From Mumia xiangluensis (GTDB lineage: Bacteria; Actinomycetota; Actinomycetes; Propionibacteriales; Nocardioidaceae), in assembly GCF_010994095.1 (NCBI RefSeq), contig NZ_WJYO01000004.1, positions 1 through 64,000 of the forward strand: DNA of 64,000 bases. Reading direction: 5' to 3'. The translations under genes and the position numbers were made by a program. Of this stretch, positions 2,116 through 57,619 are shown piece by piece. A model generated the notes under the pieces. The model was not told where the DNA came from and did no database searches. It saw only the letters and a list, made by a program, of their open reading frames with translations. The stretch's first letter is position 1. Every line of letters begins with the position of its first letter.

Positions 2116-2257
2116 AACGGAAGCACGAAGGCCCGCGATCCCTTGTAATCAGGCAAATCCCAGGTGTGCTGGTGGTCCACCGACGTTGGTGGTCGTGACT
2201 AGCATGGGGTGGACAGAGACCCGACCCGCAGAACGGTCTCGGATCAAGGGGAGTTGC

Positions 2258-4795
2258 ATGTTCGAGAGGTTCACCGACCGCGCCCGTCGTGTTGTCGTGC
2301 TCGCCCAGGAAGAGGCGCGCATGCTCAGCCACAACTACATCGGCACCGAGCACATCCTTCTTGGTCTCATCCACGAGGGTGAGGGAGTCGCTGCCAAGGC
2401 GCTGGAGAACCTGGGCATCTCGCTCGAGGCCGTGCGCGAGCAGGTCGAGGAGATCATCGGCCAGGGTCAGCAGGCGCCCAGCGGTCACATTCCCTTCACC
2501 CCGCGCGCCAAGAAGGTCCTCGAGCTCAGCCTCCGCGAGGCGCTGCAGCTCGGCCACAGCTACATCGGCACCGAGCACATCCTGCTCGGCCTGATCCGCG
2601 AGGGCGAGGGTGTCGCCGCGCAGGTCCTGGTCAAGCTCGGAGCCGACCTCAACCGCGTCCGTCAGCAGGTCATCCAGCTACTGAGCGGCTACCAGGGCAA
2701 GGAGACCGCGGCGGCAGGCGCCCCCGCGGGCGAGTCCGCCCCGAGCAGCTCGCTCGTGCTCGACCAGTTCGGCCGCAACCTCACGCAGGCTGCCCGCGAG
2801 GGCAAGCTCGACCCGGTCATCGGGCGTGAGAAGGAGATCGAGCGCGTCATGCAGGTGCTGTCGCGCCGCACCAAGAACAACCCGGTCCTCATCGGTGAGC
2901 CGGGCGTCGGCAAGACGACGGTCGTCGAGGGCCTCGCGCAGGACATCGTCCGCGGCGACGTCCCCGAGACGTTGCGCGACAAGCAGATCTACACGCTCGA
3001 CCTCGGTGCGCTCGTCGCAGGCTCGCGCTACCGCGGCGACTTCGAGGAGCGCCTCAAGAAGGTCCTCAAGGAGATCCGCACCCGCGGCGACATCGTGCTC
3101 TTCATCGACGAGATCCACACGCTCGTCGGTGCCGGCGCAGCCGAGGGCGCGATCGATGCCGCCAGCATCCTCAAGCCGATGCTGGCCCGTGGTGAGCTGC
3201 AGACCATCGGTGCCACCACGCTCGACGAGTACCGCAAGCACTTCGAGAAGGATGCCGCGCTCGAGCGCCGGTTCCAGCCGATCCAGGTCGCGGAGCCGTC
3301 GATCGCGCACACGATCGAGATGCTCAAGGGTCTGCGCGACCGCTACGAGGCCCACCACCGGGTCACGATCACGGACGAGGCGCTCGTCTCGGCCGCGACG
3401 CTCGCCGACCGCTACATCTCCGACCGGTTCCTCCCGGACAAGGCGATCGACCTCGTCGACGAGGCCGGTTCGCGTCTGCGGATCCGCCGGATGACCGCTC
3501 CGCCGGACCTGCGCGACTTCGACGAGAAGATCGTCGACGTCCGCCGCCGCAAGGAGAATGCGATCGACGTCCAGGACTTCGAGTCCGCGGCGGCGCTGCG
3601 CAACGAGGAGCGTGAGCTCCTCACGGCCAAGACCGACCGCGAGAAGCAGTGGCGCGCGGGCGACATGGACGAGGTCGCCGAGGTCGACGAGGAGCTGATC
3701 GCCGAGGTCCTGGCGCTCGCGACCGGCATCCCGATCGTGAAGCTCTCCGAGGAGGAGTCGACTCGACTGCTCAACATGGAGCAGGAGCTGCACAAGCGGG
3801 TCATCGGCCAGGACGAGGCCATCAAGGCGCTGTCACGGGCGATCCGCCGCACGCGTGCCGGCCTCAAGGATCCGCGCCGCCCGGGTGGCTCGTTCATCTT
3901 CGCCGGCCCGTCCGGCGTCGGAAAGACCTGGCTCTCGAAGGCGCTCGCCAACTTCCTGTTCGGCGACGACGACGCGCTCATCCAGCTCGACATGAGCGAG
4001 TTCTCCGAGAAGCACACCGTCTCCCGCCTGTTCGGCTCGCCTCCGGGCTACGTCGGCTACGAAGAGGGCGGCCAGCTCACCGAGAAGGTCCGTCGCAAGC
4101 CGTTCTCGGTGGTGCTGTTCGACGAGGTCGAGAAGGCCCACCCGGACATCTTCAACTCGCTGCTGCAGATCCTCGAGGAAGGTCGCCTGACCGACTCGCA
4201 GGGCCGGGTGGTCGACTTCAAGAACACCGTCATCATCATGACGACGAACCTCGGCACCCGGGACATCGCGAAGGGCGTCAACCTCGGCTTCAGCCAGGCC
4301 AGCGACGTCGCAGGCTCGTACGACAAGATGAAGGCGAAGGTCTCGGAGGAGCTGAAGCAGCACTTCCGGCCCGAGTTCCTCAACCGTGTCGACGAGATCG
4401 TGGTCTTCCCGCCGCTGACGCAGGACGAGATCATCGACATGGTCGACATGATGCTCGACTCGGTCGAGAAGCGGCTCAAGGACAAGGACATGGCGCTGGA
4501 GCTCACGTCCGCCGCCAAGAACCTCCTGGCGAGCCGTGGCTTCGACCCGGTCCTCGGTGCGCGACCGCTGCGGCGCACGGTGCAGCGCGAGATCGAGGAC
4601 ACGCTCGCCGAGAAGCTGCTGTTCGGTGAGGTCCGTCCTGGCCAGATCGTGCTGGTCGACGTCGAGGGCGAGGGTCCGAGCGCGACCTTCACCTTCAAGG
4701 GCGAGCCGAAGGCCGAGCTCCCGGACACGCCGCTGGAGGCCGCCGCCGGCACCACCAACGGTGGGACGACCGGGGACGCGTCGGCAGCAAGCTGA
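2258..4795 (+). CDS. clpC: ATP-dependent Clp protease ATPase subunit ClpC
   Basis: 845 residues, the normal length for actinobacterial ClpC. The ATG at 2258 is chosen because it follows an AAGGGGA ribosome site and begins with the family N-terminus [11 protein letters not shown]. Order: a double Clp-N repeat (1-145), AAA-1 with Walker [10 protein letters not shown] near 213, a UVR-like coiled segment near 421-455, and AAA-2 with Walker [10 protein letters not shown] near 549. The second P-loop has Trp where Glu is usual. ClpC unfolds substrates and feeds them to ClpP1P2 in the cytoplasm. Two operator-like repeats precede it and a strong hairpin terminator follows the stop. Confidence 0.97.
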
Positions 4796-4825
4796 CCGCC
4801 GCTGCGGGCCTGACCCGCAGAGCAC

Positions 4826-4861
4826 GAGAAGGGCCCGCGACCTCGGTCGCGGGCCCTTCTC
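4826..4861. terminator. bidirectional intrinsic terminator between clpC and mutY
   Basis: A perfect 16-bp stem pairs 4826-4841 with 4846-4861 around a CTCG loop. The stem is GC-rich in its centre (gggcccgcg) and flanked by A-rich and T-rich ends. It lies just after the clpC stop and overlaps the mutY stop codon (4860-4862), so it can serve both convergent genes. A smaller hairpin at 4801-4820 (ctgcggg/cccgcag) precedes it. Confidence 0.85.
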
Positions 4862-5774
4862 ACGTCCCGGGAAGTGCGTACTCGTCGTCGCCGACGTTCA
4901 CCACGAGCCCGTCGTCGAGCAGGCTGTCGAGGGCCCGCTCCCGCTGGGTCGCGTCGTCCCAGACCTGCCGCAGCGCCGACCCGGGTACGGCGCCCTCGGC
5001 GTCGCGCAGCACCGCGAGGAGCCGACCTCGGCACTGCCGGTCCGTGCCGGCGTAGGTCTGACCGCGCCGGGCCGGGCCGTCGTACGCCGGTCGCCCGGCC
5101 GCGTGCCACCGGCACCCGTCGCGGATGGGACAGACCGAGCACGCCGGCGCCCGGGCGGTGCACACGAGGGCGCCGAGCTCCATCAACCCGATCGACCACC
5201 GTGCGGCGGTCGCGGTGTCGGCCGGAAGCGCCGACCGGGCGCGCTCGCGCTCGGCGACCGACATCGTCGCAGCGGGCAGCGCGTCGCCGCCCAGGACGCG
5301 GCCGAGGACCCTCCGGACGTTGGTGTCGAGCACCGCGTGCCGCTGGCCGTACGCGAAGACGGCCACGGCGGCCGCGGTGTACTCGCCGACGCCGGGGAGC
5401 GCGCGGAGCGCCTCGAGATCGCGCGGCACCTCGCCGTCGTGGCGTTCGCAGATCGCGGTCGCGCTGGCGTGGAGCCGCAGGGCACGCCGCGGGTAGCCGA
5501 GGCGACCCCACGCGCGTACGGCTTCCCCCGGGGCCACCTCTGCGAGCGCGCGCGGCGTGGGCCAGCGAGCGATCCACTCCTCGTAGACCGGGGCGACCCG
5601 GTCGACCGGGGTCTGCTGCAGCATGACCTCCGAGACGAGGACGTGCCACGCCGTCGTCGTCGGGCGACGCCAGGGGAGGGGACGAGAGCTAGCGGCGTAC
5701 CAGTCGCAGACGGCGTCGTGCAGCCCGTCGAGGGCGGTGCCGGCGACAGGTTGCGGTGACGTGGGGAGGACCAT
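4860..5774 (-). CDS. mutY: A/G-specific adenine glycosylase MutY
   Basis: 304 residues. Removes adenine mispaired with 8-oxoguanine in base excision repair. Catalytic Glu49 lies in SEVMLQQT, the helix-hairpin-helix LPGVGEYTAAAV is at 126-137, and catalytic Asp150 is in VLDTNVRR. The 4Fe-4S cluster cysteines C205-x6-C212-x2-C215-x5-C221 are all present. The C-terminus is short compared with E. coli MutY, with only a reduced recognition domain, which is usual in actinobacteria. It is convergent with clpC and shares the hairpin terminator. Confidence 0.95.
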   Translation of the reverse strand: MVLPTSPQPVAGTALDGLHDAVCDWYAASSRPLPWRRPTTTAWHVLVSEVMLQQTPVDRVAPVYEEWIARWPTPRALAEVAPGEAVRAWGRLGYPRRALRLHASATAICERHDGEVPRDLEALRALPGVGEYTAAAVAVFAYGQRHAVLDTNVRRVLGRVLGGDALPAATMSVAERERARSALPADTATAARWSIGLMELGALVCTARAPACSVCPIRDGCRWHAAGRPAYDGPARRGQTYAGTDRQCRGRLLAVLRDAEGAVPGSALRQVWDDATQRERALDSLLDDGLVVNVGDDEYALPGT

Positions 5775-5820
5775 GGCGAGTCGATCCTGTCACGGCGCCG
5801 CGGGAAGTTAGTTTGAGGGC

Positions 5821-6588
5821 GTGAGCTCGGTGATGCGGCCTGCGGGCAAACTCCCCCCGGGGGTGTACTGGCGTCGCCGTCTCCTCCTCCTCGCGATCGT
5901 GCTCCTGCTCGGCTGGTTCGTGGTCCGCGTGGTCGGAGGCGAGGGCGATTCGTCCGCCAAGGAACCGGAGGCGACCGAGCCGACGCCCACCGCTGCCACG
6001 TCGGCGACCGCTCCCGCCCCCGCGCAGAAGCCGCGCAAAGCGAAGGACGTCCAGGTCGACGTACGGTTCGCGCCGGTCCAGGGCGCCTGCCCTGCCGAGG
6101 CCGTGACGGTCTCGCCGTCGGTCCGGGCAGGCGCGTACGCCGGGCGTGCGGTCGCCGTGACCCTGCGCGTCGTCAGCGTCTCGCCCCAACCGTGCACGGT
6201 CCGCATCGATCCCTCGACGTTCGTGCTGGGCGTCAAGGGTGACGACGGCGCGGTCTGGAGCACCCAGACCTGCGAGGGCGTCGAAGCCCGCACGGTCGAT
6301 GTGCACCCTTCGTGGGCCACCGTGGTCGAGGTCGCGTGGAACGGACGAGCCGACGCCGACTCCTGCGACGACAAGGGGGAGTTCGTGGCGCCGGGGGGCT
6401 ACACCGCCCAGGCGGCCCTGCTCGGCGGCGACCCGGTGAGCGCAGAGTTCACGCTGACGCCCGCGCCGACTCCGACCCCGACGCCGCCGACCGCGAAGCC
6501 CGCACCGCAGGGCACAGGAGGTCCGACACCGAGCACCCCGGCGTCACCGAAGCCGGGAAGCACGCCCACGACGAGCACGTCGCCCTGA
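5821..6588 (+). CDS. membrane-anchored protein with Pro/Thr-rich linkers, unknown function
   Basis: 255 residues. A single N-terminal transmembrane helix (LLLLAIVLLLGWFVV, about residues 21-38) follows a basic Arg-rich stretch. Then come a Glu/Pro/Thr/Ala-rich linker, an extracytoplasmic beta-rich domain of about 140 residues with four cysteines that could form disulfides, and a C-terminal tail of Pro-Thr-Ser repeats. The GTG start lies 6 nt after a -10 hexamer TAGTTT (5809-5814), so the transcript is probably leaderless. It sits between mutY and disA, as similar actinobacterial proteins often do. I do not recognise a defined function. Confidence 0.8.
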   Translation: MSSVMRPAGKLPPGVYWRRRLLLLAIVLLLGWFVVRVVGGEGDSSAKEPEATEPTPTAATSATAPAPAQKPRKAKDVQVDVRFAPVQGACPAEAVTVSPSVRAGAYAGRAVAVTLRVVSVSPQPCTVRIDPSTFVLGVKGDDGAVWSTQTCEGVEARTVDVHPSWATVVEVAWNGRADADSCDDKGEFVAPGGYTAQAALLGGDPVSAEFTLTPAPTPTPTPPTAKPAPQGTGGPTPSTPASPKPGSTPTTSTSP

Positions 6589-6593
6589 CAGCG

Positions 6594-7682
6594 TCAGACG
6601 TAGCGCTCGAGGATGCTCGACTCGGCGAGTCGGGAGAGGCCCTCACGGACCGTGCGAGCGCGCAGCTCGCCGACTCCGTCGACCGTCTGGAGGTCCTCGA
6701 TGCTCGCGGCGAGGAGCTTCTGGAGCGTGCCGAAGTGCTCGACCAGGCGTTCGATGACCGCATTGGGGAGGCGAGGGACCTTCGCGAGGAGCCGGTAGCC
6801 GCGCGGCGACACGGCTGACTCCAGGTGCTCGCCCGTGCCGAGCCCGAGCGCGCGAGCCACGGCCGCGAGATCGACGAGGTCGCCGGACACGATCTGAGAG
6901 AGGTCCTCCAGGACGTCTGCGGGGGGCTTGCCGCGTCGACCGCCCGGGGCGTAGTCGCGCACGATCAGCTCGCGCTCGCTCTCGACGCCGGTGACGAGCT
7001 CGTCGAGCTGCAGCGAGAGGAGACGTCCGTCCGTGCCGAGCTCGAGCACGTAGTCCTCGATCTCGGCCGCGATGCGGGTGACCATCTCGAGGCGCTGCGC
7101 GACGGCGGCGACGTCACGCACCGTGACGAGGTCCTCGATCTCGAGAGCCGACAGCGCGCCCGAGACCTCGTCGAGGCGGAGCTTGTAGCGCTCGAGCGTG
7201 GCGAGCGCCTGGTTCGCTCGTCCGAGGATGGCTCCGGCCTCCTCGAGGACGCGGCGGGTGCCGTCGACGTAGAGGGCGATGATGTGCATCGACGCGGACA
7301 CCGAGATCACCGGGACGTTCGTCTGGCGTGCGACACGGTCGGCGGTGCGGTGACGGGTGCCGGTCTCCTGCGTGGGGATCGACGGGTCGGGCATCAGGTG
7401 GACGCCCGCCTGGAGGATCCGGGTCGCGTCCTTGTCGAGGATGATCGCGCCGTCCATCTTCGCGAGCTCGCGGAGCGCCGTCGGGGTGAAGGGCACGTCG
7501 AGGGTGAACCCGCCCGTGGACAGTGCGTCGATGTCCTTGTCCTGGCCGAAGACGATGAGGGCGCCGGTGCGGCCGCGAAGGATGCGTTCGAGGCCCTCAC
7601 GCAGCGCTGTGCCGGGTGCGACGGACGCGAGAGTGGCCCTGAGGATCGAAGGCGTCCCGCCCGCCCGATCGTTGATCGACAC
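6594..7682 (-). CDS. disA: DNA integrity scanning diadenylate cyclase DisA
   Basis: 362 residues. Makes c-di-AMP from two ATP while scanning DNA for branched or damaged structures. The DAC domain occupies about 10-150, with the catalytic D77-G78-A79 and R110-H111-R112 motifs. A long helical spine follows, then C-terminal helix-hairpin-helix DNA-binding motifs (NAVIERLVEHFG and VDGVGELRA). The GTG start is preceded by GGGGG. A -10-like TACACT lies about 38 nt further upstream on the minus strand. It is followed closely by radA on the same strand, the usual neighbour order. Confidence 0.97.
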   Translation of the reverse strand: MSINDRAGGTPSILRATLASVAPGTALREGLERILRGRTGALIVFGQDKDIDALSTGGFTLDVPFTPTALRELAKMDGAIILDKDATRILQAGVHLMPDPSIPTQETGTRHRTADRVARQTNVPVISVSASMHIIALYVDGTRRVLEEAGAILGRANQALATLERYKLRLDEVSGALSALEIEDLVTVRDVAAVAQRLEMVTRIAAEIEDYVLELGTDGRLLSLQLDELVTGVESERELIVRDYAPGGRRGKPPADVLEDLSQIVSGDLVDLAAVARALGLGTGEHLESAVSPRGYRLLAKVPRLPNAVIERLVEHFGTLQKLLAASIEDLQTVDGVGELRARTVREGLSRLAESSILERYV

Positions 7683-7730
7683 CAGTGGCCCCCGCGTTGG
7701 TCGGTTCGATGACTCAGAACAGTGTAGTGG

Positions 7731-9131
7731 CTAGGCGTCCGGAACCATCGTGCTCACGGCGGTGATGGCGCGGTGGATGGTGGCGACCTCGATCACCTGC
7801 GCCTTGAGCCCAGCGAGGGGCACCTCCTCGCGGGTGCCGCTGGGCACCAGGATGCGTCGGTAGCCGAGCCGGTCCGCCTCGCGGAGGCGCTGACCGACCA
7901 TCGTGACTCGCCTGATGTCTCCCGACAGCGAGACCTCGCCGATGGCGGCGAGGTCCAGCGGGAGCGGCCTCCCGCTGGCGGCCGACGCGATCGACAGGCA
8001 CACCGCGAGATCGCTCCCAGGATCGTTGGACCGCATGCCGCCGACCGTCGCCGCGAAGACATCCATGTCGTGGAGCCGCACCCCGGCGACGCGCTCGGTG
8101 ACGGCGATCAGCATCGAGACGCGCGAGGAGTCGAGCCCGCTCACCCCACGGCGGGGGTTGGGTGCGTTCGTCGACGACACCAGGGCCTGCATCTCGGCGA
8201 TCATCGGGCGCCGGCCCTCGGCGGTCACGGTGATGCACGTGCCCGGGACCGGCTGGTCCCGGATGCCGCGGAAGAGCCCGCTCGGGTCGACGACCTCGGT
8301 GAGGCCGTCGTCGGTCTGCTCGAAGCAGGCGACCTCGTCCGCGGGCCCGAAGCGGTTCTTGACCGCGCGCAGCAGCCGCAGCGGGGTGTGCCGGTCGCCC
8401 TCCATCGACAACGTGGTGTCGGCGACGTGCTCGAGCGCGCGGGGGCCAGCCACGTTGGAGTCCTTGGTGACCTGACCGACCAGGCAGAACGGGATGCCGC
8501 GCGCCTTCGCCAGCCGCGTCAGCGCCGTCGCGACCTCCATGACCTGCGTGACGCCGCCCGCCCTGCCGTCCACGTCGGACGAGGCGATCGTCTGCACCGA
8601 GTCGACGATCACCAGAGCGACGTCCTGGCCGAGGGCGTCGAGGTGGCCGATCGCCTCCCCGAGGTCGTTCGTGTCCGCGAGGTAGAGGTGCTCGCTCGTC
8701 GCGCCCACCCGGCGGGCGCGGGTCGCGATCTGCTGGACGGACTCCTCGCCCGAGACGTACAGGACCGGCCGGCGGGTGGCTGCGGCGACGGCGTTCGCGC
8801 AGGCGAGCAGCAGCGTGGACTTGCCGGCACCCGGCTCGCCGGAGAGCAGCAGGACCTGACCGCCCACGAGGCCGCCGCCGAGGACGCGGTCGAACTCCTT
8901 GATGCCCGTGCTCAGGCGGGCGCCGACCTCGTCGTCCCTGATCTCCGAGACGCGGCGAGCCGGCCGGCGTGGCGCCGACCCCTGAGACGAGGCCTTGAGC
9001 CCGGTCTCCTTGGCGACGGTCGCGCTCTCGGCGACCGTGCTGAACTCCTGGCACTTCGGGCAGCGTCCGTACCACTTGCCGAACTCGGCCCCGCAGCTGC
9101 TGCAGGAGAAGGTCGTCCGGGCTCTGCTCAC
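7731..9131 (-). CDS. radA: DNA repair protein RadA
   Basis: About 466 residues. RadA is a hexameric branch-migration ATPase acting in recombinational repair. The N-terminal zinc finger uses C10-x2-C13 and C24-x2-C27. Walker A GEPGAGKST is at 98-106, the RadA signature KNRFG lies about 255, and a Lon-protease-like domain forms the C-terminus. Two in-frame GTG codons are possible. I choose the second (9131) because a minus-strand -10 hexamer TAGCGT occupies 9138-9143, leaving 6 nt, the leaderless arrangement seen at many genes here. The GTG at 9137 would abut the hexamer. Confidence 0.95.
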   Translation of the reverse strand: MSRARTTFSCSSCGAEFGKWYGRCPKCQEFSTVAESATVAKETGLKASSQGSAPRRPARRVSEIRDDEVGARLSTGIKEFDRVLGGGLVGGQVLLLSGEPGAGKSTLLLACANAVAAATRRPVLYVSGEESVQQIATRARRVGATSEHLYLADTNDLGEAIGHLDALGQDVALVIVDSVQTIASSDVDGRAGGVTQVMEVATALTRLAKARGIPFCLVGQVTKDSNVAGPRALEHVADTTLSMEGDRHTPLRLLRAVKNRFGPADEVACFEQTDDGLTEVVDPSGLFRGIRDQPVPGTCITVTAEGRRPMIAEMQALVSSTNAPNPRRGVSGLDSSRVSMLIAVTERVAGVRLHDMDVFAATVGGMRSNDPGSDLAVCLSIASAASGRPLPLDLAAIGEVSLSGDIRRVTMVGQRLREADRLGYRRILVPSGTREEVPLAGLKAQVIEVATIHRAITAVSTMVPDA

Positions 9132-9198
9132 GTGCACACGCTAGGCGAGAGGTCGGACAGGACGGCGGGGGCTCGCCCGGAGCGCGTCGGGCGGGTGT

Positions 9199-9645
9199 CT
9201 AGATGCGGCCGCGCCAGGAGCGTACGGCGGCGTCCTCGCGTCGGCTCTCGAGGTGCGCGTGGACGGCGGCGTAGATCGGGATCCACGTGCTCGGAAGGAG
9301 CAGGACGAGCGCCCCGACCGCGGGGGCGACCGGGTCGGTGGCTCCTCGGGTCGCGTGCTCGCTGACCAGCAGCCCGGCAGCGAGGACGGCGGCCAGCCCG
9401 GGGAGGTAGCCCCACAGCGCCGGTCGCAGGCACCCGGTCAGACGGAGCAGCGCGATCGCGCCGGCGAAGCAGCAGAGCGCGATGCCGCCGGCCGCCACCG
9501 CGGCGGCGAGGTAGCCCGCGCGCGCAGGGCTCGTCGTCAGCAGGACGTTGATGCCCGTTGCGCCGAGCACCGCGGTCGCCGCCATCGAGATCACGACGAC
9601 GGTCGCCTCGCTGGGGTGCCCGGGGATCCGCAGGACGCTGCTCAT
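9199..9645 (-). CDS. small four-helix membrane protein, unknown function
   Basis: 148 residues, largely hydrophobic, with about four transmembrane segments (ATVVVISMAATAVLGATGI, YLAAAVAAGGIALCCFAGA, ALWGYLPGLAAVLAAGLLV, APAVGALVLLLPSTWIPIY). The short cytoplasmic tail is Arg-rich. No catalytic motif is visible and I do not recognise the family. It stands alone between radA and the repeat-flanked lyase segment, on the same strand as both. Confidence 0.65.
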   Translation of the reverse strand: MSSVLRIPGHPSEATVVVISMAATAVLGATGINVLLTTSPARAGYLAAAVAAGGIALCCFAGAIALLRLTGCLRPALWGYLPGLAAVLAAGLLVSEHATRGATDPVAPAVGALVLLLPSTWIPIYAAVHAHLESRREDAAVRSWRGRI

Positions 9646-9737
9646 CCGTCCAGGGTGGATCGTCGACGCCCTCCGGGCATCCGCACTAGTACTCAGTTCA
9701 ACTATTCATCGGGAGAATTCCGGCAAGGCGATCGCAA
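9646..9737. other. AT-rich intergenic patch next to the left direct repeat
   Basis: No gene is visible. The stretch 9691-9720 has only 12 G or C of 30, while neighbouring host genes run above 70 percent in samples I counted. It abuts the outer side of the left 33-bp repeat. It may be the old intergenic region or a leftover of transferred DNA. Confidence 0.4.
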
Positions 9738-9770
9738 CCCGGTCAGATGCGGACGTCGCCTGTCGGCGTC
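9738..9770. repeat. left copy of 33-bp direct repeat
   Basis: Identical over 33 bp to 11895-11927. Its last two bases supply part of the lyase stop codon (complement of 9769-9771). Beyond the repeat the two flanks diverge at once on the right. On the left only CAAC is shared, offset by one base. Confidence 0.9.
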
Positions 9771-11832
9771 ATTGCTCACGGAACAGAAGGGGCGCGGCAA
9801 AGCCGAAGGTCTCGAAGTCGAACCGCGCGCCCGTCGGCAGGGAGCCGTCTTGACGAGCGATCACGGCGGCCAGGGACGAGCCGCCGTACTGGCGTGCCGC
9901 GATCTCCCACAGGGCGCCGTCGGAGAGTTGGCGGCTCTCCGGCTTATCCATGCTGTAGTAACCTGTGTAGCTGGGGTCTTCGATGAGGTCGCTGCTGTAG
10001 AACGGCGCGTAGAAGAGGAACGCATCCTTCAGTGAGACTCCTTTCGAGGTGGTGATCTCGAAGATGCCAGGGTCGTATCGACTCTTCGTCGCCATCTCGG
10101 CCAGGAGCGTTAGCTCCCTCAGGCTGTGCACGGCGTAGTAGAGCCCGTGGCCCTCGTTTCCGTACCAGGACCTGTACCGGTCGTACAGCTCGCCCTTGCG
10201 CGTGGCGGGCTTGCCCCCGCCCTGGTAGTACGTGAAGTCTTTGTCGTGCAGCTCGCTCGCGGGTGCGTTCGCGCGCAGCAATGCCCCTTCGAAGAGCACG
10301 CGCATCCGGTCGCGGTTGTTCACGAGTGCTTCGTCGATCATCGCGCGATCATCGAGGGCGAGCCCGATCGCCAGCCGTCCCATGGTGTGCGCGATCGTCT
10401 GGTTGTCGAAGGTCTGGACAGTCCACCGCTCGTGGCTGACGGCGATCTGTCGCGACAGTTCCCGCAGCCAAGCCTCGACACGGACTCGCTGCTCGGGAAG
10501 GAACGAGCCGAATGCGACGGCGTACGCATTGGCAAAGTTGACCGCCGCGCGCGAGATGATCATCCCCGCCCGTCGCTTGAGCAGCTCCGCCTCAGCAGCG
10601 GGTCTGGTGGGATCGGTGGTGGCGATCCTGTCACTCATCTCGGGGTCGTCAGCCCATGCCAGCATAAGGTCGACCAGCTTCTCGCCGGCAAGCTCCCGGG
10701 TCGCTGAATCACTGTCGATGCGAGAGACGAGTGCTAAGTCGCGCGCATATCCTGCCTCGCGCCGGGCAAGGTTCTTGTACCTCTCATACTCCGGCCCCTG
10801 ATACGGCGATGCTGGGACGTAGGTCGCCAGGTCCGGGATCGGCGGGGACACTGCGGACCGTACGCATGTGTACCCGGCTGCGCTCCCCGGCACGAATGTC
10901 TCTTTGAGGCACGCGTAGCTGCGGGCGAATGGTTGAACGCCTTCGGACACCTGCGCCCTTGCGCGAGCAAGTTCCTCGCTCGATGTCCACACGGTCGGCT
11001 TCGGATACCTGAACGAGACCTCGCCCTCCATCGACCACGAGGTGCCGAGCCGAAGGCCGAATGACGACAGGGGTTGCGTCGCTGACACGGACCCCGCGAT
11101 CGGAGCTCCGCACGGATCTCCCCACACATGTGGGGACGTGCCAGTGCCGTCGTCCTTTCGGATGATCCAGCTGTTTTCCGCGGGGCGTCGCAACGCGATC
11201 GTGTCTTTGCCGCTGGTCAACCAATGCCCCGCGAGGGGGATGTCGGATGCGGTGCCGAAGGTAAACGTCGCGTACGAGGAAGTTGGGAGATTGTTCGTGA
11301 CGTTGGCGAGGTGGTCACCTGCGCTGAGAAAGAAGGAGTTCGGGAGGCGGTGCAGTCCGATCGTGTCGTGACCGTCGCCGTCCCAATCTCCGACCACGAC
11401 GTTGTCCGTCGCTCTTCCCCAGGAGAAGGCGATGGGGGACGCTGACGTTGAGTCGTACAGCAGAAAGTAGACGTTCCCCCGCTTCACTCCCGGCGTGTCG
11501 ATTCCGTCGCCGTTCCAGTCGCCGACCAGCGGAGTGTCGGAGGGGGTCCCGAACGGGATGTCGTGGGCCCATTCGCTGGTTCCCAGAAAGTCGCTGAGGA
11601 GGAATGATCGTCCGCGTCGGATGCCGGGTGTGTCGATCCCGTCGCCATCCCAGTCGCCCAGGAAGGAGGGATCGGTGGTGATGTCCGACGTCGTACAAGG
11701 TGTCGTCATGGCATCAGCCGAAGTCGACGCAGGGAGCCACAACGGCGCGACGCCGAGGAGTGTGACGATCAGCGTCAGCGTGATCGGGATACGTGACCGC
11801 GACAATTGTCTGCCCTCTCGGTTCAGATCCAT
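9769..11832 (-). CDS. secreted alginate-lyase-superfamily-like protein with N-terminal Ca-binding repeats
   Basis: 687 residues from the ATG at 11832, chosen because GGAG stands 5 nt upstream and it gives a clean signal peptide (hydrophobic core at about 15-34). Four FG-GAP/VCBS-like repeats of the form G-D-W-D/N-G-D-G follow at about 58-74, 102-118, 147-162 and 200-216. The fourth is degenerate. The remaining 420 or so residues are helical and resemble the alginate lyase alpha/alpha-barrel superfamily, with DNQTIAHTMGRLAIG and GNEGHGLYYAVHSL as likely active-site regions. It probably cleaves or binds an acidic polysaccharide outside the cell. The substrate is not shown. GC is clearly lower than in its neighbours and it is bracketed by direct repeats, so recent acquisition is likely. 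Confidence 0.75.
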   Translation of the reverse strand: MDLNREGRQLSRSRIPITLTLIVTLLGVAPLWLPASTSADAMTTPCTTSDITTDPSFLGDWDGDGIDTPGIRRGRSFLLSDFLGTSEWAHDIPFGTPSDTPLVGDWNGDGIDTPGVKRGNVYFLLYDSTSASPIAFSWGRATDNVVVGDWDGDGHDTIGLHRLPNSFFLSAGDHLANVTNNLPTSSYATFTFGTASDIPLAGHWLTSGKDTIALRRPAENSWIIRKDDGTGTSPHVWGDPCGAPIAGSVSATQPLSSFGLRLGTSWSMEGEVSFRYPKPTVWTSSEELARARAQVSEGVQPFARSYACLKETFVPGSAAGYTCVRSAVSPPIPDLATYVPASPYQGPEYERYKNLARREAGYARDLALVSRIDSDSATRELAGEKLVDLMLAWADDPEMSDRIATTDPTRPAAEAELLKRRAGMIISRAAVNFANAYAVAFGSFLPEQRVRVEAWLRELSRQIAVSHERWTVQTFDNQTIAHTMGRLAIGLALDDRAMIDEALVNNRDRMRVLFEGALLRANAPASELHDKDFTYYQGGGKPATRKGELYDRYRSWYGNEGHGLYYAVHSLRELTLLAEMATKSRYDPGIFEITTSKGVSLKDAFLFYAPFYSSDLIEDPSYTGYYSMDKPESRQLSDGALWEIAARQYGGSSLAAVIARQDGSLPTGARFDFETFGFAAPLLFREQ

Positions 11833-11894
11833 CGACGCTCCGTGGCTCGGATGGCCATCGGCCGCGCGGGTGAACCGCACAGTAGCGGATCAAC

Positions 11895-11927
11895 CCCGGT
11901 CAGATGCGGACGTCGCCTGTCGGCGTC
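11895..11927. repeat. right copy of 33-bp direct repeat (3' end of VOC gene)
   Basis: Identical over 33 bp to 9738-9770. On the minus strand it encodes the VOC protein's final residues TPTGDVRI plus stop and 5 nt beyond, as expected for an attachment site placed at a gene end. Confidence 0.9.
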
Positions 11928-12538
11928 GCGAACGTGGCGGCCACGATGCCCGGCATCCCGTTCGGCGCGACCCACTGCACGTCGACGTCGGTGAGCGCGT
12001 CGAGTACGGACTCGCCGAGGTAGGTCGTGACGCGGTCCGGTGACCCGGCGATCTCCAGCGAGCGGAGAGCAACGGTGGCCCCGGCTGCTCGCGAGGGGTG
12101 CTCGCTGTCGGGAACCTCCCACTGGACCACGAACGGCAGCTGCGGGTCGGCCTGCGTCCCGCGCACCCCGATCTGCTTCCACTCCAGGTTGTAGCCGTCG
12201 GGCCGCCGGCGGTTGCCCGGGACCGCGTGCCGGCCCATCCGGCGCTCGACGGGGTCCATGTCGTCCACCCGCACGACCCAGCCGAGCCAGCCGCCGCCGA
12301 GCTCGGTGCGAGCGCGGACGGCCTGTCCGAACGGAGCCTTGTCGGAGGCGGGGTGGTCGAGGACGCTGACGACCTCGACGTACTGGTCCCTCGCGAGCGG
12401 GAGCACCATGTTGCGGGTGCCGAACCGGGGGTGGTTGCCCCCGTCGACGAAGGGGGATCCGAGAGCGTCGCTCAGGCGGGCTGTGGTCGCGGCGAGACCG
12501 TCAGGCCCGGCCGCGAAGGAGAGATGGTCCAAGCGCAT
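11900..12538 (-). CDS. VOC-family (glyoxalase-like) protein
   Basis: 212 residues. It begins MRLDHLSFAAGPDGL and has paired beta-alpha-beta-beta-beta halves in the style of the Glyoxalase_3 subgroup of vicinal-oxygen-chelate proteins. His5, His36 and Glu55 (in QYVEVVS) are candidate metal ligands in the first half. The substrate is unknown. A weak -10 CACAAT lies 6 nt before the ATG on the minus strand. Its last nine codons are duplicated downstream as the left direct repeat. It follows the cysteine-rich gene by 43 nt on the same strand. Confidence 0.75.
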   Translation of the reverse strand: MRLDHLSFAAGPDGLAATTARLSDALGSPFVDGGNHPRFGTRNMVLPLARDQYVEVVSVLDHPASDKAPFGQAVRARTELGGGWLGWVVRVDDMDPVERRMGRHAVPGNRRRPDGYNLEWKQIGVRGTQADPQLPFVVQWEVPDSEHPSRAAGATVALRSLEIAGSPDRVTTYLGESVLDALTDVDVQWVAPNGMPGIVAATFATPTGDVRI

Positions 12539-12581
12539 GCCGCCATTGTGACCTGAGCCACATCGCGTCCTGCGGGAGGGG

Positions 12582-13328
12582 TCAGGCGCCGGGGTCCGCG
12601 CGGTGGCGCGTCCGGTGATGGTCGGCCGCGAGCCGCTCCTCGCACAGCGTGACCAGCTGCGCGTACGCCGCGGGTCCCATCAGCGCGGTCAGCTCGTCGG
12701 CGCTCGACACGTAGACCGGCTCCCTGCCGACGTGGGCCTCGGTGTTGGCGGAGCAGTACCAGTCGAGGTCGTGGCCGCCGGGGCCCCACCCGGCGCGCGT
12801 GTACTCGCCGATGGCGACCTCGGTGTACGAGGTGCCGTCGCCGCGCTCGACCTCACGGAACTGGCGGCGGATCGGCAGCTGCCAGCACACGTCCGGCTTC
12901 GTCTCGACGAAGGAGATGCCGCGGTCGAGAGCGAGCTTGTGCAGGGCACATCCCGTGCCGCCCTCGAAGCCCGCACGATTGTGGAAGATGCACGCGCCCT
13001 CGTACGTCCGGGTCTTGAGCTCGCCGTCCTCGTCGGTCTCCGTCCAACCGCGCTTCTTGCCCTCGGCGCGGTGCTGCCAGTCCTCCGGCCCGAGCTGCTT
13101 GACGTACTTCTTCACCCGCCGGTAGTCGTCGTCGTCGGAGAAGTGGGCGCCCAGGGTGCAGCAGCCGACGTCGGGCGCGTCGGCGTAGATGCCGCGGCAT
13201 CCCTGGCCGAAGATGCACGACCACCGCGAGGTCAGCCAGGTGAGGTCGCAGCGGAAGACCTGGTCGTCGTCGGCGGGGTCGCGGAACTCCACCCACGCTC
13301 GCGGAAAGTCGAGCAGAACCTCGGGCAC
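12582..13328 (-). CDS. conserved cysteine-rich protein, possible metal or Fe-S binder
   Basis: 248 residues. Ten or so cysteines include CIFGQGC, a GCC pair, and CIFHNR followed by GCALHKLA. This spacing recalls cysteine-cluster proteins of the DUF3109/YkgJ kind, but I cannot assign the family with certainty. The rest is soluble and acidic, with no signal peptide. The GTG start lies 6 nt after a minus-strand -10 TAGAGT (13335-13340), suggesting a leaderless mRNA. It is divergent from ppx/gppA, with only 48 nt between the two starts. Confidence 0.65.
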
Positions 13329-13376
13329 GCCCTCACTCTAGACCGCTGCGACGAACCCGGTGGGTACGCTCGAACC

Positions 13377-14300
13377 ATGCGTATCGGAGTCCTCGACATC
13401 GGCTCGAACACCGGGCACCTCCTGGTGGTCGACGCCTACCGGGGTGCCCCGCCCCTGCCTGCGTTCACCTACAAGGAGCCCTTGCGCCTCGCCGAGCACC
13501 TCGACGCCGAGGGAGCCGTGGACTCGCGCGGGGTCAAGGCGCTGGTGCGGTTCGTCGACGAGGCGCGCGCCGTCGCCGCCGACAAGGGCTGCTCCGAGGT
13601 GATCGCGTTCGCCACCTCGGCCGTGCGCGACGCCGTCAACGCGGACGCTGTTCTCGCGAAGGTCGAGTCGCAGACCGGCGTACGCCTCGAGGTCCTCGCC
13701 GGCGACGAGGAGGCGAGGCTCACGTTCCTCGCCGTACGCCGATGGTTCGGGTGGTCCTCGGGCCGCCTCGGCGTCTTCGACATCGGCGGCGGCTCCCTCG
13801 AGATCGCGACCGGCCGCGACGAGACGCCTGACGTGTGCACGTCGCTCCCGCTCGGTGCCGGGCGCCTCACCCGCGACTGGTTCCCCGAGGGGGTGCCGAC
13901 CGACGCCGAGTACGACGCGCTGCGGCTGTTCGTCCGCCAGCAGATCGCCGGCAACGTCGGTGCGCTGCGCCGCGGCGGCGACTTCGACCACGTCGTCGCG
14001 ACCAGCAAGACCTTCCGCTCGCTGGCGCGCCTGTGCGGCGCGGCGCCGTCGGAGGCCGGCCCGTACGCCCGCCGGGCGCTGCGTCGCGACCTGCTCGGCG
14101 CCCACCTGGACGAGCTGCGCACGCTCTCGGTCGCCGAGATCGCCGAGCGGCCGGGTGTCTCCCCGACCCGCGCGCACCAGATGGTCGCCGGGGCCGTCGT
14201 CGCGGACGCACTGATGGACCTGTTCGACCTCCCGGAGCTCGAGATCTGTCCGTGGGCGCTGCGCGAGGGCGTGCTGATCGAGCGCCACGACCACATGTGA
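13377..14300 (+). CDS. Ppx/GppA-family exopolyphosphatase
   Basis: 307 residues, the length of short actinobacterial Ppx1-type enzymes. The ASKHA phosphate-binding loops are MRIGVLDIGSNTGHLL at the N-terminus and VFDIGGGSLEIATG in the middle. It likely hydrolyses polyphosphate or (p)ppGpp-related substrates. Which of these it uses cannot be read. The ATG at 13377 is chosen because a -10 TACGCT (13365-13370) lies 6 nt upstream. The frame also stays open far upstream, but those codons oppose the cysteine-rich gene. The next gene is the TIM-barrel isomerase, as in M. tuberculosis Rv0496/Rv0498. Confidence 0.9.
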   Translation: MRIGVLDIGSNTGHLLVVDAYRGAPPLPAFTYKEPLRLAEHLDAEGAVDSRGVKALVRFVDEARAVAADKGCSEVIAFATSAVRDAVNADAVLAKVESQTGVRLEVLAGDEEARLTFLAVRRWFGWSSGRLGVFDIGGGSLEIATGRDETPDVCTSLPLGAGRLTRDWFPEGVPTDAEYDALRLFVRQQIAGNVGALRRGGDFDHVVATSKTFRSLARLCGAAPSEAGPYARRALRRDLLGAHLDELRTLSVAEIAERPGVSPTRAHQMVAGAVVADALMDLFDLPELEICPWALREGVLIERHDHM

Positions 14301-14324
14301 GCACGCCCCCGTAACCTTGGTTCC

Positions 14325-15164
14325 GTGTCCGCGACCGACTCCGACCTCCCCGTCTCCGTGCCGTCCGCACGGGTGACCTTGTCGACGTCGTCGGTCTATC
14401 CGGAGCCGACGGAGGCGGGCTTCGAGCTCGCGAAGCGGCTCGGCTACGACGGCGTCGAGGTGATGGTCGGGACCGACGCGACGAGCGCCGACATCGAGGC
14501 CGTCGTGGGGCTCCAGGAGCGCTACGACATCCCGGTGCTGTCCATCCACGCGCCGTGCCTGCTGATCACCCAGCGGGTCTGGGGGACCGACAACTGGGTG
14601 AAGCTCGAGAAGAGCGCCGAGATGGCGAAGGCGTGCGGTGCCGGCCTCGTCGTCGTGCACCCGCCGTTCCGCTGGCAGCGCGAGTACGCCCGCGCGTTCG
14701 AGGCCGGCGTCGCCGGGCTCGAGGAGAGCGCAGGCGTCGTGTTCGCGGTGGAGAACATGTACCCGTGGCGGACCGGCAAGCGAGAGTTCCAGGCCTACGC
14801 GCCGGGGTGGGACCCGGTCGCGTTCGGCTACGAGCACGTCACGCTCGACGTGTCGCACTGCGCGACGTCGGGCAGCGACCCGGTGGAGATGGCGGTGGAG
14901 CTCGGCCACCGTCTCGCCCACGTCCACCTCGGTGACGGCACGGGCTCGGCGCGCGACGAGCACCTGGTGCCGGGTCGAGGCCACCAGCCGGTGGGCGAGC
15001 TTCTCGGGCTGCTGGCCGAGGGCGGCTACGCGGGCGACATCGCCGTCGAGGTCACGACCCGCAAGGCCGCCGACCGTGCACAGCGCGAGGCCGACCTCGC
15101 CGAGGCGCTCGCCTTCACCCGTCTCCACCTGGCCGCTGCCGCGCAGGCCGCTCCGGACGCGTGA
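14325..15164 (+). CDS. sugar phosphate isomerase/epimerase-family TIM-barrel protein
   Basis: 279 residues of the xylose-isomerase-like TIM barrel type (AP_endonuc_2 superfamily). Barrel strands with metal-ligand candidates are visible: VLSIHAPCLLI, VVVHPPF, FAVENMYPW, TLDVSHCA, AHVHLGDG and IAVEVTTR. The Glu, Asp, His and Glu set for a divalent metal is present. The substrate is unknown. The GTG start is 7 nt after a -10 TAACCT (14312-14317), so it likely has its own leaderless promoter although it lies 24 nt downstream of ppx. Confidence 0.85.
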   Translation: MSATDSDLPVSVPSARVTLSTSSVYPEPTEAGFELAKRLGYDGVEVMVGTDATSADIEAVVGLQERYDIPVLSIHAPCLLITQRVWGTDNWVKLEKSAEMAKACGAGLVVVHPPFRWQREYARAFEAGVAGLEESAGVVFAVENMYPWRTGKREFQAYAPGWDPVAFGYEHVTLDVSHCATSGSDPVEMAVELGHRLAHVHLGDGTGSARDEHLVPGRGHQPVGELLGLLAEGGYAGDIAVEVTTRKAADRAQREADLAEALAFTRLHLAAAAQAAPDA

Positions 15165-15240
15165 GCAGCCGGGCAGACATCTCGGTCGCTGTTTGAACAA
15201 CCTTCCGTCACGACCCGCGAGCGGTCGTACTCTTCCGCTT

Positions 15241-15834
15241 ATGGCTGGCAGGCGCCCTGGCGCACCCGATACCCGTGGCGAGATCCTCGCCGCTGCGCGC
15301 GCGGAGCTCGCGCAGCACGGATACGACGGGACATCGCTGCGCGCCGTGGCCCGCCGAGCCGCTGTCGACCCAGCGCTCGTCCACCACTACTTCAAGGACA
15401 AGCAGCGTCTGGTCACCGCCGCGCTCTCGCTGCCGGTCGCCCCGTCCGAGGTCCTGGCGCCGGTTCTCGTCGCCGCCTCGGACGACGTCGGCGGTGCTCT
15501 CATCCGGGCGCTCGTCACGTCGTGGGACGAGCCGGTCAACCGGGAAGCCGTCATCGCGATCTCGCGCAGCGGCCTCGGCACCGCCGGCCAGGGCGACATC
15601 GTGCGCGACTTCGTGATGCGCGAGACGATCGGCGAGGTGCTCCAGCGTCATCGCCCCGACGCGCCGCCGGAGGTCGCGGCACTGCTGCTCGCCATGATGG
15701 TCGGGCTGGTGTCGGCGCGCTACCTCCTCGAGGTGGAGCCGCTGGCGTCGATGCCGGTGGACGAGGTCGTCGCGCTGGTCGGCCCGGTGGCCCAGCAGCA
15801 TCTCGACCTCGCCCGGGTCGCCGACACGGTCTAG
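15241..15834 (+). CDS. TetR-family transcriptional regulator of the adjacent ABC exporter
   Basis: 197 residues. The N-terminal TetR helix-turn-helix reads LRAVARRAAVDPALVHHYFKDK (given here only as a motif region, about residues 35-56). A helical ligand-binding domain follows. The ATG at 15241 lies 7 nt after a -10 TACTCT (15228-15233). An ABC ATPase and permease follow 9 nt downstream on the same strand, the usual arrangement of a self-regulated drug or lipid exporter. The inducer is unknown. Confidence 0.9.
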   Translation: MAGRRPGAPDTRGEILAAARAELAQHGYDGTSLRAVARRAAVDPALVHHYFKDKQRLVTAALSLPVAPSEVLAPVLVAASDDVGGALIRALVTSWDEPVNREAVIAISRSGLGTAGQGDIVRDFVMRETIGEVLQRHRPDAPPEVAALLLAMMVGLVSARYLLEVEPLASMPVDEVVALVGPVAQQHLDLARVADTV

Positions 15835-15843
15835 CATCGCGGC

Positions 15844-16569
15844 ATGGCGAGGACGGAGCTCCCGGCGGTCGCAGTCGAGCAGCTCCACGTCGTCCGCGGC
15901 GGACGTGTGGTCATCGCGGGCCTCTCGTGCACGGTGCGGTCCGGCCGCATCACCGGTCTCCTCGGGCCGTCCGGCTCCGGCAAGTCGACGTTGATCCGCG
16001 CGATCGTCGGGGTGCAGGCGGTCGCGGGCGGTGCCGTGCGGGTGCTCGGCGAGCCCGCCGGGTCACCAGTGCTGCGGGACCGGGTCGGCTACGTGACCCA
16101 GTCGCCGAGCGTCTATCCCGGTCTGACGGTCGCCGAGAACGTCCGGTTCTTCGCCTGCGTCCTCGGTGTCTCGCTCCAGGACGTGGACCGGGTGCTGGAG
16201 GTCGTCGACCTCGCCCGGTACGCCGACACGATGGTCGGCCGTCTCTCCGGTGGCGAGCGGAGCCGGGTCTCCCTGGCCTCCGCGCTGCTCGGCTCGCCGA
16301 GGCTGCTGGTGCTCGACGAGCCGACCGTCGGGCTCGACCCCGTGCTCCGGGTCCGGCTGTGGGACCTGTTCGCCGCGCTCGCGAGCGAGGGCATCTCGCT
16401 TCTCGTGTCGAGCCACGTGATGGACGAGGCCGAACGGTGCGACGACCTCCTCCTGCTCCGAGACGGCGCGCTGCTGGCCGAGGACACGCCGGCCGGTCTG
16501 CTCGAGCGGACCGGCACCGACGACGTCGAGGCCGCGTTCCTCGCCCTGATCGACGAGGGTGCGGCGTGA
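15844..16569 (+). CDS. ABC transporter ATP-binding protein (DrrA-like)
   Basis: 241 residues. Walker A GPSGSGKST, Q-loop in YVTQSPSVYP, signature LSGGERSR, and Walker B LLVLDEPTVGLDP are all present and intact. It most resembles ATPases of ABC-2 type exporters. The ATG lies 6 nt after TAGCAT (15832-15837), a -10 hexamer that overlaps the TetR stop codon, so an internal promoter is possible. It is translationally coupled to the permease through a GTGA overlap. Confidence 0.92.
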   Translation: MARTELPAVAVEQLHVVRGGRVVIAGLSCTVRSGRITGLLGPSGSGKSTLIRAIVGVQAVAGGAVRVLGEPAGSPVLRDRVGYVTQSPSVYPGLTVAENVRFFACVLGVSLQDVDRVLEVVDLARYADTMVGRLSGGERSRVSLASALLGSPRLLVLDEPTVGLDPVLRVRLWDLFAALASEGISLLVSSHVMDEAERCDDLLLLRDGALLAEDTPAGLLERTGTDDVEAAFLALIDEGAA

Positions 16570-17303
16570 CCGGACGCATCACGGCGGCGATCGCGGCCCG
16601 CGTCCTCGGTCAGCTGCGGCACGACCACCGGACGATGGCGCTGATGCTCGTGGTGCCGTGCGCCCTGATCACCCTCCTGTGGTGGGTCTACTCCGGCAAC
16701 AGCGACCTCTTCGACACGATCGGGCCTCAGCTGCTCGGCGTGTTCGGGCTCGTGGTGATGTTCCTGGTCACGTCGATCACGACGCTGTCCGAGCGCACCT
16801 CAGGCACCCTGGAGCGCCTCTTCACCCTGCCGATGGGCAAGCTGGACTTCCTTCTGGGCTACGCGCTGGCGTTCGGGGCGGTCGCGCTCGTCCAGGGGTT
16901 CCTCGCGGCGGGCCTCTCGGTGTGGGTGCTCGGCCTCGACGTGCGGGGCGGCGTCGGGCCGCTCGTGCTGGTGGCGGTGCTGTCGGGCGTCCTCGGGACG
17001 GCGCTCGGCCTGCTCGTGTCGGCGTTCGCTGCGACGGAGTTCCAGGCGGTGCAGTTCATGCCGGCATTCGTGCTGCCGCAGCTGCTGGTGTGCGGGCTGC
17101 TCGTCCCGCGCGACGAGCTGCCCCAGGTGCTCGAGTGGGTGTCGTACGCGACACCGCTGTCCTACGCCGTCGACGCGACGACGGAGGTGACCTTGCACGC
17201 CCAGTGGACGACCGCTCTCACCTGGGACGTCGTCGCGCTGCTCGCCTTCACCGTCGGTGGCCTGCTGCTGGGCTCGGCCACGCTCCGCCGCCGTACGCCC
17301 TGA
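16566..17303 (+). CDS. ABC-2 type transporter permease
   Basis: 245 residues with six transmembrane helices of the ABC-2 (DrrB/NodJ) fold. The segment SITTLSERTSGTLERLFTLP is the family motif between helices 2 and 3. The GTG start at 16566 overlaps the ATPase stop codon. With the ATPase it forms a half-size exporter, probably homodimeric or with this permease paired to itself. The cargo is not evident. Confidence 0.9.
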   Translation: MTGRITAAIAARVLGQLRHDHRTMALMLVVPCALITLLWWVYSGNSDLFDTIGPQLLGVFGLVVMFLVTSITTLSERTSGTLERLFTLPMGKLDFLLGYALAFGAVALVQGFLAAGLSVWVLGLDVRGGVGPLVLVAVLSGVLGTALGLLVSAFAATEFQAVQFMPAFVLPQLLVCGLLVPRDELPQVLEWVSYATPLSYAVDATTEVTLHAQWTTALTWDVVALLAFTVGGLLLGSATLRRRTP

Positions 17304-17353
17304 GGCGGTCGCCGACGACCGAGGGCGCTCGTCGCCTCCCCTATCCTCGGACC

Positions 17354-18151
17354 ATGAGCACAGTTGCGGTGGTCGGGGCCGGTGCGATGGGGGAGGCGAT
17401 CGTCTCCGGGATGCTGGCCAAGGGCTGGTCCCCGGACGATCTCGTCCTGGCCGTGCGACGCGAGGAGCACGCCGCGGCGCTGCGCGCGTCGTACGCGGTC
17501 GAGGTGACCGATGCCGTCTCGGCGGCCGCGAAGGCGGACGTCGTCCTCGTCGGCGTGAAGCCGGTCGACGTCCCAGGGCTGCTCGGGCAGATCGGTCCGC
17601 GCCTGCGCCCAGGTGCGCTGGTCGTCTCGCTCGCGGTCGGTCTCACCACCAGCTCGCTCGAGGCGGCGCTGCCCGGCGGCACCCCGGTCGTGCGCGTCAT
17701 GCCCAACACGCCCGCCCAGGTCGGTGCCGGCGTCTCCGTGATCTCGGCGGGGAGCTGCTGTGACGACGCCCAGCTCGCGGTCGTCGAGGACATCATGAGC
17801 GCGGTCGGCACGGTCGTACGCCTTCCCGAGAAGCTCCAGGACGCCGCTGGTGCGGTCTCCGGGTCGGGACCGGCGTACGTCTTCCTGGCGATCGAGGCCC
17901 TGACCGAGGCGGGCGTCCACCTCGGCCTACCGCGGACGACGTCCACCCAGCTCGCCGTGCAGACCTTCGTCGGAGCCGCGCGGCTGGCCGCCGAGACCGG
18001 CGAGCACCCCGCCGTGCTCCGTGAGCGCGTCACCTCTCCGGGGGGCACGACGGCGGCGGGACTCCGGCAGCTCGAGGAGCGTGGCCTGCGTGCCGCGTTC
18101 CTCGCCGCGACCGAGGCGTCGCGCGACCGTTCGCGTGCGATCGGCGGCTGA
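17354..18151 (+). CDS. proC: pyrroline-5-carboxylate reductase
   Basis: 265 residues. Catalyses the last step of proline synthesis, NAD(P)H-dependent. Rossmann motif VAVVGAGAMGEAIVSGML opens the protein. The signature VSGSGPAYVFLAIEALTEAG and the C-terminal SPGGTTAAGL region are diagnostic. The ATG at 17354 lies 6 nt after -10 TATCCT (17342-17347), a leaderless arrangement. It stands in the same place as proC (Rv0500) of M. tuberculosis. Confidence 0.96.
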   Translation: MSTVAVVGAGAMGEAIVSGMLAKGWSPDDLVLAVRREEHAAALRASYAVEVTDAVSAAAKADVVLVGVKPVDVPGLLGQIGPRLRPGALVVSLAVGLTTSSLEAALPGGTPVVRVMPNTPAQVGAGVSVISAGSCCDDAQLAVVEDIMSAVGTVVRLPEKLQDAAGAVSGSGPAYVFLAIEALTEAGVHLGLPRTTSTQLAVQTFVGAARLAAETGEHPAVLRERVTSPGGTTAAGLRQLEERGLRAAFLAATEASRDRSRAIGG

Positions 18152-18188
18152 GCGAGACCTGCATCACCTGCGGGCTACGCTGGGTGGC

Positions 18189-19379: not shown

Positions 19380-19501
19380 CCTCCCGTCCGCGTCACGGGC
19401 CGGTTCACGTCTTTGCCCGCACTGCCCGTACGCTTGGCGGGGGTTGTCCCACGTCCGGGGCATCTCGCGCCACAGGCTGTGTGAACAAAAGAAGGTGAAC
19501 C

Positions 19502-19603
19502 GTGGGTTCTGTCATCAAGAAGCGCCGCAAGCGCATGTCGAAGAAGAAGCACCGCAAGCTCCTCAAGCGCACGCGCGTCCAGCGTCGCAAGCTCGGCAAG
19601 TAG
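19502..19603 (+). CDS. 30S ribosomal protein bS22 (AURKAIP1/COX24-domain small protein)
   Basis: 33 residues, read directly: it begins GTG and encodes [19 protein letters not shown] and then [14 protein letters not shown]. More than half the residues are Lys or Arg. This matches the tiny actinobacterial ribosomal protein (Rv0500B in M. tuberculosis) that binds the small subunit near the decoding region. A purine-rich AAGAAGG ribosome site precedes the GTG. It lies 15 nt before the SDR gene, as in mycobacteria. It is easily missed because of its size. Confidence 0.92.
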
Positions 19604-19618
19604 CCCAGCAGGCGCACC

Positions 19619-57511: not shown

Positions 57512-57553
57512 GGTCGCCCATCCTGTCACCTGCTGGTGGACGCCAGGTCGACG

Positions 57554-57595
57554 GACTCGACATTCCCGCTGTCCGAGCACCAGGAATGTCGAGTC
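57554..57595. promoter_or_regulatory. 13-bp inverted repeat between menA and menE
   Basis: gactcgacattcc (57554-57566) and its exact reverse complement (57583-57595) are separated by 16 nt. The dyad is centred in the divergent menA/menE region, 13 nt before the menE -10 TAGCGT (57608-57613). It may be a shared operator or a transcript hairpin. Confidence 0.6.
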
Positions 57596-57619
57596 TCCTG
57601 CAGGGCATAGCGTGGGCCT

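Follow-up and report, generated by a model that had tools for sequence, protein, structure and literature searches.

A single lyase gene framed by identical 33-bp direct repeats at the 3′ end of a VOC gene in Mumia xiangluensis

A lyase-like gene has been inserted precisely at the 3′ end of a VOC gene in Mumia xiangluensis, on a 2124-bp segment framed by two identical direct repeats of 33 bp (Table 1). The insertion is real, and it is probably recent, because the same place is empty in the congeners, the nearest of them (G002) keeps a single copy of the repeat, and over 384 kb no other simple indel between the two genomes has a junction repeat of more than 14 bp. Single genes are often gained or lost between close bacterial species, mostly without leaving a telling scar. 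In this case the scar survives together with the precise ends and the empty site, so that the route by which the cargo gene entered can be tested directly. Tentatively, and with a little under even confidence, the segment is read as a one-gene passenger placed by site-specific recombination at the VOC 3′ end, with a recombinase that acted in trans or has since been lost. The window referred to below is the whole stretch of DNA analysed, 64,000 nucleotides in length, and G000 is the genome it comes from.

The repeat pair and its empty site

The two copies of the repeat were recovered by a repeat search of the window in direct orientation, exactly where the first-pass annotation had placed them and identical at 33/33 positions. 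By arithmetic from base composition, about 1e-8 chance pairs of this length would be expected in 64 kb. In the whole 4.62-Mb assembly of G000 the 33-mer occurs in these two copies only, even with up to three mismatches allowed (a control pattern gave 0), and the fear that it might be a common dispersed repeat was therefore not realized. The right-hand copy had been described as the last nine codons of the VOC gene plus its stop. It does contain the end of the gene and the stop codon, but the 25 coding nucleotides make up eight codons and one base. As had also been claimed, insertion at the 3′ end left the host gene unchanged, with its reading frame whole. The distal copy is intergenic and precedes the next native gene.

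Table 1. Features of the insertion locus (window positions)
Feature	Position	Strand	Remarks
Small hydrophobic protein gene	9199..9645	-	native neighbour of VOC in 6/6 genus genomes
Distal copy of the 33-bp repeat	9738..9770	.	native intergenic DNA adjoins, continuous with flanking sequence that G002 shares
Lyase gene, 687 aa from ATG	9769..11832	-	GGAG 5 nt before the ATG; 703 aa if read from a GTG at 11880
Inserted unique segment, 2124 bp	9771..11894	.	absent at the same place in G002; gene absent from 5/5 congeners
Alginate_lyase domain (PF05426)	9994..10689	-	E 2.1e-8, above family cut-off
N-terminal repeat region (DWDGDG...), approximate	11085..11679	-	shared with many actinobacterial proteins
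62-bp leader between VOC-side repeat and lyase ATG	11833..11894	-	
VOC-side copy of the 33-bp repeat	11895..11927	.	final 25 coding nt of VOC, its stop and the next 5 bp
Host VOC gene (Glyoxalase_3, PF13468)	11900..12538	-	intact; 3′ end is the target

Six genomes of the genus were compared, namely G000 and five congeners. All six carry the VOC gene, the other five proteins being 80–92% identical to that of G000, and in all six the order is VOC, small hydrophobic gene, radA. The distance from VOC to the radA match is 571–667 bp in the five congeners, versus 2763 bp in G000. When G002 is aligned to the window with blastn, one block ends at 9770, the other begins at 11895, and the two overlap by exactly 33 bases; G002 therefore holds an empty site with a single repeat copy, just what a check of relatives had been proposed to look for. 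In the other four congeners VOC is followed directly by the same next gene, with no lyase between. The lyase is thus found in 0/5 congeners, and the case of relatives carrying it with the same flanks, which would have spoken against insertion, did not arise. The single copy in G002 differs from the 33-mer of G000 at 5/33 positions, the VOC genes overall having 89% DNA identity.

A separate observation concerns radA itself (window 7731–9137). The genes of G000 and G002 are 93% identical and form a lineage apart from those of the four other congeners, which are at the same place with 51–54% identity to G000; the radA of G003 and G004 resembles the others of that group at 83–95%. When 66 RadA sequences are placed in a tree, the gene of G000 and G002 groups with those of G025 and G018 on long branches, a join that may be unsure according to a program warning. 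It looks like a replacement in place or an old paralogue.

The lyase gene and its relatives

By eye the segment contains one likely gene, the lyase, which shorter mechanical ORFs overlap. GC content in 500-bp windows is 63–65% inside the segment, versus 69–78% in windows clear of it between 5 and 17 kb, and GC3 is 0.79 in the lyase versus 0.92–0.95 in three neighbour genes. Together with the PF00589 and PF07508 searches given below, these values bear out the earlier picture of some 2.1 kb enclosing one lower-GC lyase-like gene and no recombinase. The TGA of the lyase is made up of the last base of the element and the first two bases of the distal repeat, so that the left copy takes in the end of the ORF. 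This 3′ end looks complete: of three homologues in another genome of the class (G542), two stop, like the lyase, within about 10 residues of a shared conserved leucine, and the third (L136) runs on at its C-terminus into the same kind of repeats. The N-terminus resembles a secretion signal by eye and is followed by DWDGDG-type repeats, which we take to be FG-GAP/VCBS-like, and then by the PF05426 domain. The protein is probably secreted, and alginate as its substrate would be a family-based guess.

The lyase starts 67 bp past the VOC stop on the same strand, and no promoter-like or terminator-like site was seen in the leader by a crude consensus scan, which found no promoter anywhere in 9600–12100; its expression is therefore likely to depend on the VOC transcript. 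The leader has no second full copy in the six genomes, where only short matches at chance level were found.

The N-terminal repeats are common in related bacteria and the catalytic part is rare. In the family, 88/294 genomes match the lyase, G000 included. Among the matches listed, and leaving aside its own genome, the region covered is residues 48–309 of the 703-residue query (N-terminal repeats and linker), except in G255, which has a weak partial match at residues 424–537 (E 2.4e-4). In genome contigs, the best 80 of 271 lyase relatives, representing 77 loci, all match within residues 5–281, again in the N-terminal region. The catalytic part is matched in 3/394 genomes of the class, these being G000 itself, G634 and G542. 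The G634 match was rejected as a low-complexity ORF (E 5.5e-4), and the three paralogues of G542, at about 24–33%, are the only convincing relatives among the 394. No relative of the lyase was found in viral contigs or plasmids, nor DNA similar to the element in phages or plasmids; comparison of the lyase with NCBIfam, PHROGs and PADLOC models and with PDB sequences gave no match.

Recombinases, indels and other repeats

Tyrosine-recombinase (PF00589) matches number 11 in G000 (10 over cut-off) versus 3–6 in the congeners, and none of the 11 falls in the window. The serine-recombinase family PF07508 has no match in the G000 genome, and a large serine integrase, to which an identical block of 33 bp is unsuited, was dropped for want of such a match. 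Nothing resembling the core was seen in nine recombinase regions of G000 (best 21–23/33, ungapped), and no words of 9–12 bp common to the surroundings of both junctions could serve as arm candidates. The segment lacks terminal inverted repeats, its best end-to-end score being equalled by 6% of random pairs.

The search was widened to 65 relatives, made up of all five congeners (about 6–7 kb each) and 60 other family genomes (4.7–12 kb each), the latter chosen for their large contigs from 227 with VOC among the matches listed. In none of the 65 is the VOC end repeated downstream over more than 15 bp, chance words of 14–15 being all that was found. Since radA lies within 7.4 kb of VOC in 65/65, there is no larger island between the two. 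A strict degenerate core pattern run against 341 family genomes hit 9, among which G000 alone has two copies. The 33-bp core and the VOC-side junction are both absent from the viral contigs searched, and the proposed hunt for the 33-bp sequence beside other cargo came back empty-handed.

Two regions of contig C2 of G000 deserve mention in their own right. At about 854.2–858.6 kb (L233:6220–10574), a 36-bp repeat of a tRNA-Met end frames 4.3 kb with a tyrosine recombinase. This is probably a small tRNA-targeted island, and it suggests that integration of such a kind occurs in G000. At C2:415505–425550 (L227, L228), a stretch of 10 kb holds three matches to the tyrosine-recombinase family, of which one falls short of the family cut-off; two of them (424052, 425035) are adjacent, and short 28-bp tandem repeats lie nearby.

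How unusual is such a junction? Simple indels, defined as at least 250 bp on one side and at most 120 on the other, were collected between G000 and G002 along C4 1–384 kb. There are 15, with the extra DNA in G000 for 8 and in G002 for 7. The junction repeat is 33 bp for the lyase insertion, and 14, 13, 12 and then at most 9 bp for the 14 others (lengths under 8 are below the resolution of the comparison). Opposite window positions 4858–4867, 57533–57636 and 59605–59621, G002 has 1132, 1508 and 972 bases; each of these three extra stretches holds a mechanical ORF of 310–436 aa, with junction repeats of at most 9 bp.

Direct repeats were also scanned for pairs 300–20,000 bp apart, skipping words with more than four copies. 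Pairs of at least 22 bp number ten in C4 1–384 kb, and 6 of these have similar flanks (at least 27/40) on at least one side, as for paralogous coding repeats. The pairs on this contig include one of 22 bp at 270593/272303 and one of 23 bp at 315420/316568. They also include a 35-bp direct repeat (C4:90942–90976 and 91979–92013, L250), nearly perfect over about 49 bp and with a nested palindrome, which frames one gene, presumably AbiEi/DUF559-like. As another insertion this pair was rejected, the stretch aligning through in G002. Eight pairs were found in C1 1–340 kb, of which three lie where the contig begins and three belong to a single repeat cluster at 86 kb; of the other two, one is of 32 bp with its copies 18.8 kb apart and one is of 22 bp. 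Near the start of C1 there is also an 8.7-kb repeat in two near-adjacent copies (2204–19690). No pair of at least 24 bp occurs in the 712,594 bp downstream of VOC in the 60 family genomes.

Possible origins and comparison with known systems

How, then, did one gene come to lie exactly behind another? If an integrase was responsible, the 33-bp block would be a shared att core, of which one copy completes VOC and the other joins the native downstream DNA. Since the element has no recombinase, the enzyme would have acted in trans, or would have come with a larger element that later shrank to a very small CIME-like islet; we infer both the att nature of the repeat and the missing recombinase. A block that straddles the stop codon and restores the gene has the usual geometry of integrase islands, which are described as restoring their target gene on integration (PMC12884075). 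The lack of terminal inverted repeats and the exact empty site in G002 agree with this, as do ends that respect the gene: its ATG is preceded by 62 bp with a Shine-Dalgarno-like GGAG, and its stop falls at the repeat. G000 is moreover richer in tyrosine-recombinase matches than its congeners, one of them sitting in the tRNA-Met-framed segment. What weighs against an integrase is the lack of a recombinase inside the segment, of an integrase-bearing element at the VOC end in 65 relatives, of visible arms, and of a similar core in the nine recombinase regions. The copies, too, are identical although the block differs from G002 at 5/33 positions; a core brought in from a different species would be expected to carry mismatches, unless the element was already circulating in this one. 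Of the attachment-site shape first proposed, insertion at a gene's 3′ end has stood, while a recombinase, an arm motif, a second cargo and a phage or plasmid relative were not found, and the perfect match of the two copies suits a duplicated target no less than an att core.

It is the identity of the copies that speaks for a possible, though less favoured, explanation in which the VOC end was cut with a 33-bp stagger, a foreign fragment was ligated to it and the gaps were filled, through end joining at a break or a transposase in trans. Both copies would then be host DNA, matching each other at 33/33 positions versus 28/33 to G002, whereas a core as diverged as that of G002 would by arithmetic match perfectly about 0.4% of the time. 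Target duplication also fits the failure to find a recombinase or a core-bearing relative. Ku is present in 6/6 genus genomes, and Dupuy is said to have described in 2019 the acquisition of heterologous DNA through bacterial NHEJ. Target duplications of 24–29 bp are reported for the IS1202 group (PMC10045372). Terminal inverted repeats are nevertheless missing, a repaired overhang of 33 bp would be long, the close fit of the ends to the gene is not what a random fragment would give, and the 14 other simple indels have no comparable repeat. Cas1, the other maker of repeat-sized duplications considered, is absent from all six genus genomes (0/6), and off-target Cas1 integration or a casposon was dropped. 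Retro-insertion of a transcript was another route considered and set aside. Insertion by integrases at gene ends is a common and well-described process, and on this ground site-specific recombination is held to be somewhat more likely than target duplication. Rather unlikely is a gene-capture route that is neither an integrase island nor a known transposon, in which a single gene-precise, apparently promoterless unit with no terminal repeats and no enzyme was inserted behind the host gene and about 33 bp of target were duplicated.

As a sub-case of the integrase reading, an island may have lost everything except one gene and its att sites. The geometry would be the same, the cargo is low in GC, and att-only remnants are described as CIMEs (PMC5704250). 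Such decay is nonetheless unlikely: the 2124 bp hold no recombinase match and, by eye, no other likely gene, both ends are tight on an apparently intact gene, no parent island was found in 65 relatives, and because the copies are identical there has probably been little time for decay. It is very improbable that the gene and its flanking repeats are old and that the congeners lost the gene by recombination between the repeats. Loss between 33-bp repeats would yield exactly the structure of G002, but with 5/5 congeners lacking the lyase several losses would be needed versus one gain, none of the matches listed from 294 family genomes covers the catalytic domain except its own (that of G255 being weak and partial), and the GC content of the lyase has not adjusted. 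Scarcely credible, too, is an assembly artefact in which a foreign contig was joined through a 33-mer. Common assemblers do use 33 as a k-mer size; the site, however, is inside a 494-kb contig, and a foreign piece could be joined in only if it carried the host 33-mer at each end, which itself implies insertion.

Returning to site-specific recombination, the nearest known kind of element would be the CIME, or cis-mobilizable element, a recombinase-less att remnant described as an island with attL and attR (PMC5704250). Like a CIME, the segment has two att-like repeats, keeps the 3′ end of a gene and lacks integration and transfer genes. It differs in being one gene of 2.1 kb, in having no parental ICE/IME or partner found at the site, and in a core that perfectly matches the host's own gene end. 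Among the features of islands and CIMEs, a direct repeat at both ends with one copy restoring the target gene is present, as is a single-copy empty site through which G002 aligns; an integrase-bearing relative at the same att site was seen in 0/65 relatives. Having no PF00589 or PF07508 match, the segment does not qualify as an autonomous island; this would accord with a CIME, whose recombinase has been lost. In the titles and starts of abstracts searched among open-licence literature, neither this site nor one-gene islets of the same form are described, which is weak evidence of absence.

Other small elements offer partial likenesses. An integron gene cassette also has one gene, a very short leader and a recombination-like block at the stop codon, but here the block is host gene sequence on both sides and is not at attI. 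Integron cassettes are bounded by GTTRRRY core sites; by eye none bounds the segment, and the 33-mer alone folds in an attC-like manner no better than shuffles (z -0.5 and -0.3). The pdif (Xer) modules of Acinetobacter likewise have single genes between recombination sites with the recombinase in trans, but the repeat here, unlike a dif site, is the end of a protein gene, and the genome has no further copy of it. Both Xer modules and integron cassettes serve as analogies rather than as classes to which the segment belongs. Mobile insertion cassettes are passenger genes between transposon ends, with no transposase. They share with the segment a passenger without its own enzyme, but not its lack of terminal inverted repeats or its much longer target repeat; for lack of such inverted repeats, a mobile insertion cassette or DDE transposon was rejected. 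If the repeat is an att core, the lyase segment would be an unusually small islet relying on a recombinase located elsewhere; should the repeat be a target duplication instead, the segment would point to a capture process unmatched by the known element families tried here.
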